Positions 3,546 through 51,610 of a stretch of 64,000 nucleotides of DNA are shown here, one piece after another. Origin of the DNA: Acetobacter farinalis (GTDB lineage Bacteria; Pseudomonadota; Alphaproteobacteria; Acetobacterales; Acetobacteraceae); the NCBI RefSeq assembly GCF_011516935.1, contig NZ_WOTF01000006.1, positions 1 to 64,000 on the forward strand, written 5' to 3'. The notes beneath the pieces are model-generated. The model ran no database searches. It was not told the DNA's origin and worked only from the letters and a program-made list of their open reading frames with translations. How positions within the stretch are numbered: the stretch's first letter is position 1; every line of letters starts with the position of its first letter. Both the position numbers and the translations under genes were made by a program.

Positions 3546-4631
3546 TTAAAAGTGAGAGAGGAGCGAGAGCTGCTCGGCTGCAGTCTGCTCTTCAGTGGAG
3601 GCCAGGGACGACACTGTAATGCCCAGCAGCCGCACAGGTTTTGGCAGCGGTAGCAGTGGCCGGAGCAGGAAGTGTGCCGTATGGGCCAGTGCAGTAGCGG
3701 AGGGTACAGGCTCTGTAAAGGAATGGCTGCGTGTGAGCTGAGTGAAGTTCACATAGCGAAGTTTTAATGTTACGGTGCGGCCGGAACGTTGCCGTCTGGT
3801 ACAGGCGTGCCATACGCTTTCGGCCAGTGTGGCTAAGGCATTTTGTAAATCGTTCTCCCGGATCAGGTCTGTTTCGTAGGTCGTTTCTTTCCCGATGGAT
3901 TTGCGGGGGCGGTGCGGCTCGACCGGGCGCGGGTCTTCCCCGCGGGCAATTCCGTAATAAAACGTCGCGGCTTTCCCGAAATGGCGCACGAGGGTGTCCA
4001 GCGTCTGCTCTCGCAGGTCTGCCCCGGTGTAGATCCCCAGAGCGTTCATGCGGGCCGCGGTGGCGGGGCCAATGCCGTGAAAGCTGTTGATGGGAAGTGC
4101 GGCGACAAATGCCTCTCCCGCGCCGGGCGGGAGAACGAACTGGCCATCCGGCTTGCGGTAGTCTGACGCCAGCTTGGCGAGAAATTTGTTGTAGGAGATT
4201 CCCGCGGAGGCCGTCAGCCCGGTTTCCTCCCGGATGGCGGCGCGGATTTCCCTGGCGATGGCGGTGGCCGTGTCGCGCGGCAGCAGTGGCTCTGTGACAT
4301 CCAGATAGGCCTCATCCAGAGAGAGGGGCTGGATAAGGGCCGTATAGCGAGCGAAAATAGCATGAATCTGTGCGGAAACCGCGCGATAGACCTCAAAGCG
4401 CGGGGGCACGAAAATCAGTTCCGGGCATTTCCGTTGCGCAACGACGGAGGGCATGGCGGAGCGCACGCCAAATGTTCGGGCCTCATAGCTTGCCGCCGCA
4501 ACCACGCCGCGTTCCTGCGAACGGCCGACAGCAACAGGACGCCCCCGCAAAGCCGGGTTATCCCGCTGCTCGACCGACGCATAAAAGGCGTCCATGTCGA
4601 TATGAATAATCCGGCGTACAGGCTCAGTCAT
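3546..4631 (-). CDS. dinB: DNA polymerase IV (Y-family translesion polymerase)
   Basis: A 361-residue protein, the usual size for Pol IV, which copies past damaged bases at a cost in fidelity. The catalytic acidic residues are visible: D12 in HIDMDAFYASVEQ and D106/E107 in SLDEAYLD. The C-terminus ends QLSLLSHF, fitting the QLxLF-type peptide by which the polymerase binds the beta sliding clamp. A little-finger region with KSIGKETTYETD is present. I looked for an alphaproteobacterial LexA site (GTTC-N7-GTTC) just upstream and did not see one, so SOS control is not shown by the sequence. Confidence 0.95.
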   Translation of the reverse strand: MTEPVRRIIHIDMDAFYASVEQRDNPALRGRPVAVGRSQERGVVAAASYEARTFGVRSAMPSVVAQRKCPELIFVPPRFEVYRAVSAQIHAIFARYTALIQPLSLDEAYLDVTEPLLPRDTATAIAREIRAAIREETGLTASAGISYNKFLAKLASDYRKPDGQFVLPPGAGEAFVAALPINSFHGIGPATAARMNALGIYTGADLREQTLDTLVRHFGKAATFYYGIARGEDPRPVEPHRPRKSIGKETTYETDLIRENDLQNALATLAESVWHACTRRQRSGRTVTLKLRYVNFTQLTRSHSFTEPVPSATALAHTAHFLLRPLLPLPKPVRLLGITVSSLASTEEQTAAEQLSLLSHF

Positions 4632-4689
4632 GCAGCGCAGACTAGCATGATCTCTCTGGTCCTGAAAAAGCCGGAGAGAAGGGCCTACT

Positions 4690-4730
4690 CAGACTCTGGC
4701 CCAGACTCTTGGGATTTTAGCCCAGACTCT
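4690..4730. repeat. three copies of CAGACTCT
   Basis: The octamer CAGACTCT occurs at 4690-4697, 4702-4709 and 4723-4730 in the gap between dinB and the unknown gene to its right. The flanks are similar too (GGCCCAGACTCT-like), so this looks like a small local duplication. No function is suggested by the sequence. Confidence 0.5.
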
Positions 4731-4764
4731 GGTGCTTACCCGCGGGAAGGGCGGGGTCGTGCTG

Positions 4765-5385
4765 TCAGGGCAAGGCGGGCTGCCGGTGTGGTGCGGGATT
4801 CTGGAGCGCCTGCGGCCACCTGACGGATGCAGGGGTGATTTCAAAATCATGCCAGCGTGCCAGAGAGAGTGAGGCGGCTGTGGTGGGGCGCCTCTGCTGT
4901 GCGGCAGAGGGGTTTTCAGCAGAGGGCCTGACAGGCGGCAGGGTTCGCCCCGTGTGGTGTGAAAGCCAGTAGCCCGCGCCTGCAAGGCAGGCTCCCAGCG
5001 TGGTGATGGCGGTTGTCAGGCGGGTGAGCAGGTTCGGGACTGTCAGCAGGGGTTTCAGCAGGGTGTAAACCGTGGTGTCCTGTTCATTCTGGGCGGCTTC
5101 CGTTGCCAGAAGCAGGCTGTATTCTGTGGGGGTAACGGCCAGAGAGCGGCCGGAGCGGATATCCAGCGCGGGCAGTTCCAGCGCGGCCATGTGGGTCAGT
5201 GTTTCATGGAACGCGTCTGCCACAGCCAGAAATTCCTTCCGGAAACAGGGCAGGAACAGGCTGGTGGCGGAGGCACCGGGGGGGCGGGGGCAGCCGGAGG
5301 CCGTTCCGGCAAGGCGGCGAATGGTCCAGATAGTCAGCCGTTCGCTGCAGGCAAGGTCTGTCAGGTAAACCGGTGAGCGTGTCAT
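4765..5385 (-). CDS. unknown protein with one membrane segment, behind a Fur-box-like site
   Basis: Not recognised. The 206-residue product starts MTRSPVYLTDLACSERLTIW; it is largely alpha-helical in character and has one clear hydrophobic stretch (about residues 128-148, LLTRLTTAITTLGACLAGAG) followed by a polar proline-rich tail. A GCPRP motif lies at about residue 31. ATG 5385 is preferred since AGGA sits 8 bp upstream; the frame extends another 23 codons to 5454 but that would run through the operator-like palindrome at 5443-5463. That palindrome suggests iron-responsive control, so a role in iron handling is a reasonable guess but not shown. Confidence 0.7.
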   Translation of the reverse strand: MTRSPVYLTDLACSERLTIWTIRRLAGTASGCPRPPGASATSLFLPCFRKEFLAVADAFHETLTHMAALELPALDIRSGRSLAVTPTEYSLLLATEAAQNEQDTTVYTLLKPLLTVPNLLTRLTTAITTLGACLAGAGYWLSHHTGRTLPPVRPSAENPSAAQQRRPTTAASLSLARWHDFEITPASVRWPQALQNPAPHRQPALP

Positions 5386-5442
5386 GGCGTCATCCTGAAG
5401 GGTGCGGCCCTTCGGTCCTTTTTTGCGGTGATCTCCTGATCT

Positions 5443-5463
5443 AAATGAGAACAATTCTCATTT
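5443..5463. promoter_or_regulatory. Fur-box-like palindrome
   Basis: AAATGAGAA-CAA-TTCTCATTT: a perfect 9-bp inverted repeat around a 3-bp centre. It matches the general form of Fur-binding sites (TGAGAAT-type half sites). It sits 58 bp upstream of the leftward unknown gene (start 5385) and about 90 bp from the rightward pyrD start, so the unknown gene is the more likely target. A Fur-family regulator gene is present in this window at 51.1-51.6 kb. Confidence 0.65.
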
Positions 5464-5553
5464 GCAAGACAAAAATGCAGGGATCACCATTCTGCCTGAT
5501 GACAGAGGGATTTTCCTCTTTTCTTGTCTGCCTGCTTGGGGCAGTACAGACGC

Positions 5554-6627
5554 ATGTCTGCTCTTGCTTCTCTCTCCCTTCCGCTCCTGCGCAAGCTGGA
5601 CCCCGAAACCGCGCATGAACTCGCGCTGGATGCCCTGATGCTGGGTGTGTCCGTGCCAGTCAAACGCCCGCAGGATGACCCGGCACTGGCCACGCGCACC
5701 ATGGGGATGCGCTTTTCAAACCCGCTTGGTATTGCCGCCGGGTTTGATAAAAATGCCCGTGTTATCCGCCCTCTGGCCAAGCTGGGTTTCGGGTTTGTGG
5801 AAGCCGGAACGGTGACTCCGCGCCCGCAGGAGGGAAACCCGAAGCCCCGCCTGTTCCGCCTGATGGAAGATCGCGCGGTTATCAACCGGATGGGCTTCAA
5901 CAATCAGGGGATTGACCGGTTTACCGTGCGGCTGGCTCGCCTGCATCGCCCTCTGCCATCCGGGCGGGGAGCCGGGGCGGGGGTGCCAATCGGCGCGAAT
6001 CTGGGAATCAACAAGACAGGGGCGGACCCTGAGCGGGATTACCCGGCGCTGGTGGCGCGGGTTAAGCCCTATGTGAATTACATTGTGCTCAACGTGTCTT
6101 CGCCCAACACGCCGGGGCTGCGCGGCCTGCAGGATGCAGCCCGCCTGCGCGGCATTCTCGATGCGATAGCGCAGCGCCACCCCGAGCGGCCGCCTCTGCT
6201 GGTCAAGCTGGCGCCTGATCTGGAAAATGATGCGGTTGGCCCGATTGTGGAAGCGGCCATTGCCGGTGGGGCGCAGGGCCTGATTGTGACCAACACCACG
6301 CTGGCCCGCCCGGCCACACTGCTCAGCCCGTATAAAACGGAAAGCGGTGGCCTTTCCGGCCGACCGCTGCGCACCCGGGCCACGGAAATGCTGCGGCTGG
6401 TGGCTGAGGCCTCTGCCGGGCGCATGGCGCTGATTTCCTGCGGCGGGATTGAATCCGGCGCGGATGTGCTCGACCGCATCCGTCTGGGGGCGGACCTTGT
6501 GCAGTTCTACGCGGCGTTTTCCTATGAAGGTCCGGCCATTCTCGGGCGGTTGAAGCAGGAGATGCTGGACCGCATGCGGGCCGATGGTGTGGAAACGCTC
6601 TCTGATATCCGGGGAGTGGATCTGTAA
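5554..6627 (+). CDS. pyrD: dihydroorotate dehydrogenase (quinone), class 2
   Basis: Oxidises dihydroorotate to orotate in pyrimidine synthesis, passing electrons to quinone at the inner membrane. The 357-residue protein has the class 2 N-terminal helix (LLRKLDPETAHELALDALML) used for membrane association, AAGFDKNA at about 61-68, NRMGFNNQGID, and NVSSPNTPGLR at about 180-190 that carries the catalytic serine of class 2 enzymes. The C-terminal FMN phosphate region (SCGGIESGADVLDRI) is intact. ATG 5554 is chosen over TTG 5524 because the family normally begins just before the LDPE helix. The stop is directly followed by the next gene's ATG. Confidence 0.95.
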   Translation: MSALASLSLPLLRKLDPETAHELALDALMLGVSVPVKRPQDDPALATRTMGMRFSNPLGIAAGFDKNARVIRPLAKLGFGFVEAGTVTPRPQEGNPKPRLFRLMEDRAVINRMGFNNQGIDRFTVRLARLHRPLPSGRGAGAGVPIGANLGINKTGADPERDYPALVARVKPYVNYIVLNVSSPNTPGLRGLQDAARLRGILDAIAQRHPERPPLLVKLAPDLENDAVGPIVEAAIAGGAQGLIVTNTTLARPATLLSPYKTESGGLSGRPLRTRATEMLRLVAEASAGRMALISCGGIESGADVLDRIRLGADLVQFYAAFSYEGPAILGRLKQEMLDRMRADGVETLSDIRGVDL

Positions 6628-50285: not shown

Positions 50286-51134
50286 TTAATCCAGCGCATC
50301 GCGCAGGCGGCGTTCATAGTGGCGGTAATATTTGTCTGCCAGCAGTTCGCTTTTCACCAGAACGGCAACGTCTGTGGTGTTGAACTGCGTATCAATTACC
50401 GCGCCATCTCCCACATAGCCGCCAAGGCGCAGATAGCCTTTGATCAACGGGGGCAGGCTGGCCAGACTCCTGCGGAAATCGAGGGAATGCGGGTCCACCC
50501 GCAGCATGTCCACCCGCCGTTCCGGCAGGGCCTTCACCCGCAGGGCGGGTGGGGCCAGATGATTGTGATAGAGGTATGTCAGCTCGTTTGCGATGGCGTC
50601 GGGGTTGGTTCCCGGCAGGCTGGCGCAGCCGAACAGTACATCAATGCGATGCAGGAAAATGTAGGAGGCAATGCCCCGCCACAAAAGCTGCATGGCGGCC
50701 CGCCCGCGATAGTCCTTGTCCACGCAGGAGCGGCCAACTTCCAGCAGCCGCCCGGGAAATTCTGTCAGCGGGGAAATATCGTATTCGCTGGCGGAGTAGA
50801 AACGGCCAATTTTGGCGGCGGCATCCCCCTGCATGAGCCGGTAGGTGCCCACCACGCCGCGGGCATCGGACGCAATGGCGTGGTCAATCACCAGCAGGTG
50901 GTCGGCCACGGCATCAAACTCATCAAAGTCGCGTTTGAGGCGGAGGGTCTCCGCATCCGGATGCGCGCCCATTTCTTCATAAAACACACGGTAGCGCAGG
51001 GCCTGTGCGGCATCCCGCTCATCATCCGTGGCGGCAATGCGCACACTCAGGTTTCCACCCCGCAGTTCGGGAAAGCCCTTGCGTTCCAGATCCAGAGTGG
51101 AGAGAGAACCGGCGGACAGTTGGTCTGCGCTCAT
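50286..51134 (-). CDS. olsB: ornithine lipid N-acyltransferase, OlsB
   Basis: Transfers a 3-hydroxy-acyl chain from ACP to ornithine, the first step of ornithine-lipid synthesis. The 282-residue protein has the GNAT-type core: LRYRVFYEEMGA, KRDFDEFDAVADHLLVID, LLEVGRSCVDKDYRGRAAMQLLWRGIA and LFGCASLPGT. No OlsA gene is adjacent. It overlaps the fur gene by 4 bp (ATGA at 51131-51134), so it is translationally coupled downstream of fur. Confidence 0.9.
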   Translation of the reverse strand: MSADQLSAGSLSTLDLERKGFPELRGGNLSVRIAATDDERDAAQALRYRVFYEEMGAHPDAETLRLKRDFDEFDAVADHLLVIDHAIASDARGVVGTYRLMQGDAAAKIGRFYSASEYDISPLTEFPGRLLEVGRSCVDKDYRGRAAMQLLWRGIASYIFLHRIDVLFGCASLPGTNPDAIANELTYLYHNHLAPPALRVKALPERRVDMLRVDPHSLDFRRSLASLPPLIKGYLRLGGYVGDGAVIDTQFNTTDVAVLVKSELLADKYYRHYERRLRDALD

Positions 51135-51610
51135 GAAGCCGCTCCTTTACGTTTTGAGGGCTGAGGCGCTTTGGCCTCCTGCTGCACGGTGCGCTTTCTG
51201 CCGAACAGTTCAAGCCGCATGGAAACAAAATCGAAGCCCAGCCGCTCGGCAACACGGCGCATCAGCTCTTCATGTTCCTGATCTTCAAATTCAATAACCT
51301 TGCCATTATCAACATCAATCAGATGGTAATGGTGGCGGCCATGTTCCGTGGCTTCATAGCGCGCACGGCCTCCGCCAAAGTCACGCCGTTCGAGAATACC
51401 CTTTTCTTCCAGCAGGCGCACTGTACGATAAACAGTGGCTACGGAAATGCGGGAATCAAGCACGGACGCACGGCGGTATAATTCTTCCACATCGGGGTGA
51501 TCATCAGCATCTGACAGAACGCGTGCAATGACACGGCGCTGACCAGTCATTTTCAGGCCATGTTCGACGCAGAGCTGCGCGATCCGAGATTCTGTCGACT
51601 GTGACTTCAA
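51131..51610 (-). CDS. fur: Fur-family transcriptional regulator
   Basis: A 159-residue metal-responsive repressor. The winged helix has MTGQRRVIARVLSDADDHPDVEELYRRA and ISVATVYRTVRLLEEKGIL; the metal-sensing stretch is HGRHHYHLIDVDNGKVIEFED (H90-H96). It lacks the CxxC pairs of zinc-binding Fur, a feature of alphaproteobacterial Fur/Mur, which can sense manganese or iron; which metal cannot be told here. Candidate targets in this window include the palindrome at 5443-5463. Confidence 0.92.
   Translation of the reverse strand: MKSQSTESRIAQLCVEHGLKMTGQRRVIARVLSDADDHPDVEELYRRASVLDSRISVATVYRTVRLLEEKGILERRDFGGGRARYEATEHGRHHYHLIDVDNGKVIEFEDQEHEELMRRVAERLGFDFVSMRLELFGRKRTVQQEAKAPQPSKRKGAAS

Follow-up and report, generated by a model that had tools for sequence, protein, structure and literature searches.

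A Fur-box-associated family of predicted helical proteins in Alphaproteobacteria with a possible link to bacterioferritin iron storage

The ferredoxin Bfd is the main basis for our understanding of how bacteria draw on the iron held in bacterioferritin. According to the article texts, bfd of G. diazotrophicus is raised at low iron (PMC9368920), and Caulobacter bfd increases 57-fold in low iron and 40-fold in a fur mutant (PMC3751524). Within the Fur regulon of Alphaproteobacteria, tonB-exbBD of G. diazotrophicus is described in PMC9368920 as having its Fur box between the -35 and -10 elements. A classical box in the corresponding position, between a putative -35 and -10, is seen at a locus in a 64,000-nucleotide stretch of Acetobacter farinalis DNA (contig NZ_WOTF01000006.1, positions 1 to 64,000; hereafter the window), upstream of a gene for a 206-residue protein, P0001. 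As with the bfd-bfr pair, many genes of the family to which P0001 belongs have a Fur box in front and some have bfr as a neighbour, and low-iron expression would be expected of the family. Unlike Bfd (PF04324) and Bfr, to which it has no sequence relation, the family is predicted to form a helical domain without the conserved [2Fe-2S] cysteine set, and its role is one that we infer.

The interest of the finding lies in a widespread, unnamed family that is associated with Fur boxes and linked in part to bacterioferritin. Neither its class-wide extent nor the bfr, bfd and fur neighbourhood of the relatives figured in the initial annotation of this DNA. A literature search limited to listings and article texts found no description of the family, which does not establish that none has been published. 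No mention of it was found in the texts of PMC9368920 and PMC3751524, supplementary gene lists aside. Two Caulobacter hypothetical genes that are Fur-repressed according to the text of PMC3751524, CC_2367 and CC_2904, may or may not be members.

The palindrome and the putative promoter of the 206-residue gene

A perfect inverted repeat of Fur type had been claimed upstream of the 206-residue reading frame, and it is present 57 bp before the ATG, with 9/9 complementarity between the arms. The repeat reads AAATGAGAA-CAA-TTCTCATTT, with 9-bp arms at 5443-5451 and 5455-5463 and a 3-nt gap. Its 15-bp core, read on the minus strand from 5460 to 5446 as TGAGAATTGTTCTCA, has zero mismatches to TGAKAAYNRTTMTCA. 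The order on that strand is TTGCAA-ATGAGAATTGTTCTCAT-TTAGAT, in which the palindrome takes up the 17-bp spacer between a putative -35 and a putative -10 element (Table 1). A simple sigma-70 scan detected no promoter at these -35/-10 elements, so the assignment rests on reading by eye and on conservation.

Table 1. Features of the P0001 locus and the presumed regulator gene (window coordinates).
Feature	Position	Strand	Basis
Fur box, 21-bp palindrome (9-3-9 inverted repeat); 7-1-7 15-bp core 5446-5460	5443..5463		sequence; conservation at 19/19 Acetobacter loci
Putative -35, TTGCAA	5462..5467	-	read from sequence; TTG kept in the relatives compared
Putative -10, TTAGAT (TTAAAT in several relatives)	5439..5444	-	read from sequence
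mRNA leader hairpin (6-bp stem), immediately 5' of the Shine-Dalgarno	5395..5415	-	
Putative Shine-Dalgarno, AGGA	5393..5396	-	read from sequence
P0001, 206 aa; predicted helical domain ~1-140, flexible tail 141-206; Fur-box-associated family	4765..5385	-	
pyrD, quinone-dependent dihydroorotate dehydrogenase, divergent neighbour	5554..6627	+	
fur, presumed regulator	51131..51610	-	PF01475 match, E 3.3e-32

We propose that Fur uses the palindrome as its operator. Placed between the putative -35 and -10 of the P0001 gene, iron-loaded Fur would block RNA polymerase. Judged by position and conservation, Fur would keep the promoter shut while iron is present, and expression would begin once iron runs short. 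The presumed regulator is encoded in the window itself: the Fur protein that the initial annotation had named at 51.1-51.6 kb was confirmed by its PF01475 match. The fur ORF overlaps the next ORF on the same strand (50286-51134) by 4 bases, so the two may be co-transcribed.

At up to two mismatches the palindrome is the only match to TGAGAAYNRTTCTCA in the window. Since 30 of 100 shuffled windows likewise give at least one match (mean 0.40), a single site in a single sequence is not decisive; conservation in relatives is what makes the palindrome more than chance. The initial annotation had named conservation before orthologues as its refutation test, and the palindrome was found to be kept at 19/19 Acetobacter loci – all the relatives recovered by scanning named genomes, every one of them Acetobacter and two from metagenome-assembled genomes – and in other genera as well. 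In the 19 loci the box lies 73-75 bp before the start and scores 13-15 of 15 to the Fur pattern, the A. garciniae variant being TGAGAATGATTATCA. Other genera of the Acetobacteraceae carry TGATAATCATTATCA (L010) or TGATAATCTTTCTCA (L009, L012) at the same position, or weaker boxes (11/15 at L008 and L064, 12/15 at L019). At L017/L085 no box belonging to the family gene is seen, and L085 has no site anywhere in the locus at the thresholds used.

Across the class, 39 of 90 family genes have a match of at least 13/15 to the plain Fur pattern in the 150 bp before the start. The sample comes from 80 loci (20 picked for spread, 60 from better-scoring class-profile places), includes paralogues and related genera and is hence non-independent. 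At this level the pattern is found in 0.40% of 9,000 random windows and in 5 of 549 upstream windows of other genes at the same loci. At 12/15 the corresponding figures are 53/90 family genes versus 2.3% of random and 4.6% of other-gene windows, and the class loci alone yield 24/60 at 13/15. The remaining 37 of the 90 stay below 12/15 for the plain box; some of these have TGCAAATCATTTGCA, some none. A relaxed pattern, TGMNAAYNRTTNKCA, scores at least 14/15 in 56/90 family genes versus 7/549 other genes; because it was chosen after the data had been seen, the plain Fur pattern is the one to trust. On this sequence evidence, the 206-residue gene is very probably under Fur control.

A genome scan with the palindrome pattern (TGAKAAYNRTTMTCA, at most one mismatch), a check proposed in the initial annotation, yielded 10 sites in the 2.94-Mb genome versus 1 for the reversed pattern used as control. 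Two sites are perfect, the window site and one inside an ORF, and five of the ten fall within ORFs, including this only other perfect one. Among the other five, one precedes the 206-residue gene; one adjoins a gene for a TonB-dependent receptor and overlaps the mechanically assigned start of a small divergent ORF; one separates the bacterioferritin gene from that for a 2OG-Fe(II) oxygenase, to which it is much closer than to the bfr start ~220 bp away; one precedes a Sel1-repeat gene, the next gene after the bfr-oxygenase box region; and one is between a candidate permease gene, which we take to be of the NRAMP type, and the following ORF. The bfr-oxygenase box of this genome is at G000:C22:18965-18979 (L005).

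Distribution and genomic neighbourhood of the family

P0001 was described at the outset as an unrecognised protein, and indeed it matches no Pfam or NCBIfam model; Pfam searched at E 1 returned nothing, neither Fer2_BFD (PF04324) nor ferritin (PF00210). A search with P0001 itself gave matches in 13/150 genomes of the window's taxonomic family, profile A1 in 149/395 genomes of the order and 11/289 of the class, and profile A2, to which distant members had been added, in 106/385 alphaproteobacterial genomes and 79/277 genera. Ten further members produced only sub-threshold, chance-like matches to Pfam and NCBIfam. Running both collections on all 90 rows of A3 returned one DUF6628, one TYW2_N and one ParB match, of which we took the latter two as chance. 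DUF6628 (PF20333) matches one of the 90 members at E 2.1e-4, while P0001 and 89 of the 90 scanned do not match, and it rises above its curated cut-off in only 1 of 289 genomes. By sequence, DUF6628 seems to be a distant branch of the family, because its two best matches in those 289 genomes overlap family genes. Plasmids gave no match for P0001 and none for a distant member as DNA; another distant member, searched as protein, matched four Azospirillum records, three labelled hypothetical protein and one unannotated. Since no family model covers this Fur-box-associated family and no solved structure is recognisably related to it, it could fill a gap in the picture of iron homeostasis in Alphaproteobacteria.

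Across the 90 rows R23 and E88 are invariant and Q99 almost so. A cysteine ahead of the E88 motif is common outside the core Acetobacteraceae set (42/66 rows in the commonest column) and absent from P0001, in whose branch no conserved metal-binding residues are evident.

Some relatives have iron-storage genes as neighbours. We compared the family-gene list with an independent list of TIGR00754 bacterioferritin matches from the same 385 genomes (4.2 Mb per genome): bfr lies within 3 kb of at least 14 of 137 family genes, in 13 genomes, against an expectation of 0.2. Clustering of the ORFs at the 80 loci placed a bacterioferritin cluster in 14 loci and a bfd cluster in 9; the clusters of comparable or larger size (ABC-transporter ATPase type, 16; permease type, 12; LysR type, 10; another, 10), named by eye, look like large generic families. 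The gene orders include family-bfd-bfr (L080, L192), bfd-bfr-family (L189), bfd-family (L086, where the box precedes bfd, the first gene of its set), and bfd-family with a convergent bfr (L085); L082 has bfd together with two copies each of the family gene and bfr. Ten neighbours were checked, and all proved to be FUR, Ferritin or Fer2_BFD. In genome G060 (L088, 4799-6603) four elements are neighbours, in the order FUR-family gene, Fur-like box, family gene, bacterioferritin gene. Counted by genome among the bfr matches listed (n=385), 83 have both family gene and bfr, 23 the family gene only, 69 bfr only and 210 neither; genome size is a confounder of this co-occurrence. In the genome of the window bfr is on another contig, away from the P0001 gene. 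No stand-alone bfd was found in that genome, because both Fer2_BFD matches fall in one long reading frame.

The likeliest role for P0001 is in the iron-storage cycle, given that Bfr and Bfd are encoded close to some relatives and are regulated like them. The protein would be made under iron shortage and would help to release or redirect bacterioferritin iron, as Bfd does. With relatives often behind a like switch and sometimes adjoining iron-storage genes, it is probably an iron-starvation or iron-storage protein. The box, its conservation, the family, its neighbourhood and the predicted soluble fold come from computation; we infer Fur binding, the iron response, an interaction with Bfr and the direction of iron flow. 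Several findings count against the reading: most family genes, the window copy among them, have no listed bfr nearby; 23 of the 106 family-positive genomes gave no bfr match among those listed; many family genes have weak boxes; the box near bfr in the window genome is closer to the oxygenase; the branch of P0001 shows no evident conserved metal-binding residues; and no structural relative hints at a function. The reading as a whole – a Fur-repressed, starvation-induced cytosolic protein that probably works with the bacterioferritin/Bfd system – we regard as evenly poised, and the bacterioferritin-linked role by itself as tentative. A bolder version, which we think unlikely, casts the family as a third component of bacterioferritin storage, whose flexible tail, with a free terminal His in many distant members, would dock on bacterioferritin (or Bfd) and control the release or handing-on of iron; it may then replace Bfd where no stand-alone bfd was found, as in the window Acetobacter.

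In the main alternative, the proximity to bfr and bfd would reflect shared regulation only, with P0001 acting as a Fur-regulated starvation adaptor or iron-sparing factor on a target other than bacterioferritin and the tail as its working end. Consistent with such an adaptor, 123 of the 137 family genes have no bfr within 3 kb among the bfr matches listed, and several genomes carry two to four paralogues, often paired. The last residue is also His in 42/66 rows outside the core Acetobacteraceae set, versus 7/417 other ORFs, a control from which family genes were excluded; the 66 rows include five from the window's taxonomic family (L092-L096), of which 0/5 end in His. This terminal His, however, would suit a bacterioferritin role or an adaptor alike. 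Two points argue against the adaptor: unrelated families repeatedly show adjacency to bfr and bfd, at a rate well beyond chance, and no alternative target is suggested; we consider it possible but rather doubtful. Examples of the terminal His are found at L080 5774 (+) and L081 5383 (-), and P0001 itself ends in Pro.

Predicted fold and the membrane question

AlphaFold (90 rows) predicts helices in P0001 at residues 13-30, 46-68, 86-99, 103-110 and 117-136, with pLDDT of 92-97 in the blocks covering 51-140, 66-77 over residues 31-50 and 55-69 in the tail from 141. A distant member that adjoins bfd and bfr is modelled as a similar all-helical domain (94-98 over residues 21-150). The initial annotation had assigned P0001 a single membrane helix and seen in it a new iron-responsive, single-span membrane protein. 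Residues 123-142 are indeed free of D, E, K, R, N, Q and H, but the best 19-residue Kyte-Doolittle window reaches only 1.28, and 15/90 family members reach 1.6. In the AlphaFold models of P0001 and of the distant member, the segment is packed into the globular domain and forms its final helix. We therefore consider a membrane-spanning P0001 very unlikely; as modelled, it is far more likely to be soluble. Members of this alphaproteobacterial family would be soluble, all-helical and probably cytosolic, and would end in a flexible tail. From the initial interpretation, we retain the box of Fur type and its place in the promoter region of a gene that had not been recognised, while the single transmembrane helix is withdrawn together with the CPRP motif, which is peculiar to the window protein and not conserved.

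Searches for a structural relative were negative within the PDB. The profile against PDB sequences gave a best E of 0.037, mostly to de novo helical designs, and Foldseek against the PDB with the two models gave best E values of 0.36 and 1.4, with no convincing relative. The best VIA-align hit (Z 4.4; 4.3 A over 110 aligned residues, a nuclear-receptor ligand domain) and the best for the second model (Z 3.9) were both taken as a common helical arrangement. Ferritin-like chains appear only among the weak matches, at Foldseek E 2.7 or worse and VIA Z under 3. On these models we assign P0001 to no known fold and make no claim that its fold is new.

Box variants in relatives and the mRNA leader

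In the distant members L148, L171, L176 and L177 the upstream site has the form TGCAAATCATTTGCA, which we take to resemble a Mur box, and another regulator of the Fur family (Mur-, Zur- or Irr-like) might bind the site in at least some lineages. The Acetobacteraceae sites, however, have the classical Fur form, a FUR-family gene is present in the window and another adjoins the box in L088, and in an informal comparison matches to the Irr (ICE) box stay at 8-11 of 15 throughout; we regard a regulator other than Fur as very unlikely. About as improbable is that the box, which lies between divergent starts ~91 bp from the pyrD ATG, serves pyrD or both genes and is nothing special to the 206-residue gene, since in other genera with different neighbours it stays by the family gene at similar spacing.

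Family genes are often arranged as divergent or tandem pairs (L157 5068-6041, L151 5056-6117 and L161 4884-5775; further pairs at L163 4995-5877, L082 4563-5608 and L083 5461-6730). The divergent pairs of L157 and L151 have one Fur-like box common to both genes.

The mRNA leader of P0001 can form a hairpin directly ahead of the Shine-Dalgarno sequence (Table 1). Rfam matched nothing in 4600-5700, and RNAalifold on the leader alignment gave no consensus structure; MAFFT seems to have misaligned the stems. Among 36 distinct Acetobacteraceae leaders, 26 carry a 6-8-bp stem whose end falls 8-12 nt ahead of the start codon, and 15 of the 36 are individually below p 0.05 against shuffles. The stem sequences vary (GAAGGG, TGAGGG, GGAGGC, CGGGCCAC, CCGGACAT, GGCCGGG). 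As a conserved element the hairpin is suggestive, not established. Read on the plus strand, the same 5395-5415 segment of the window is a terminator-like site.
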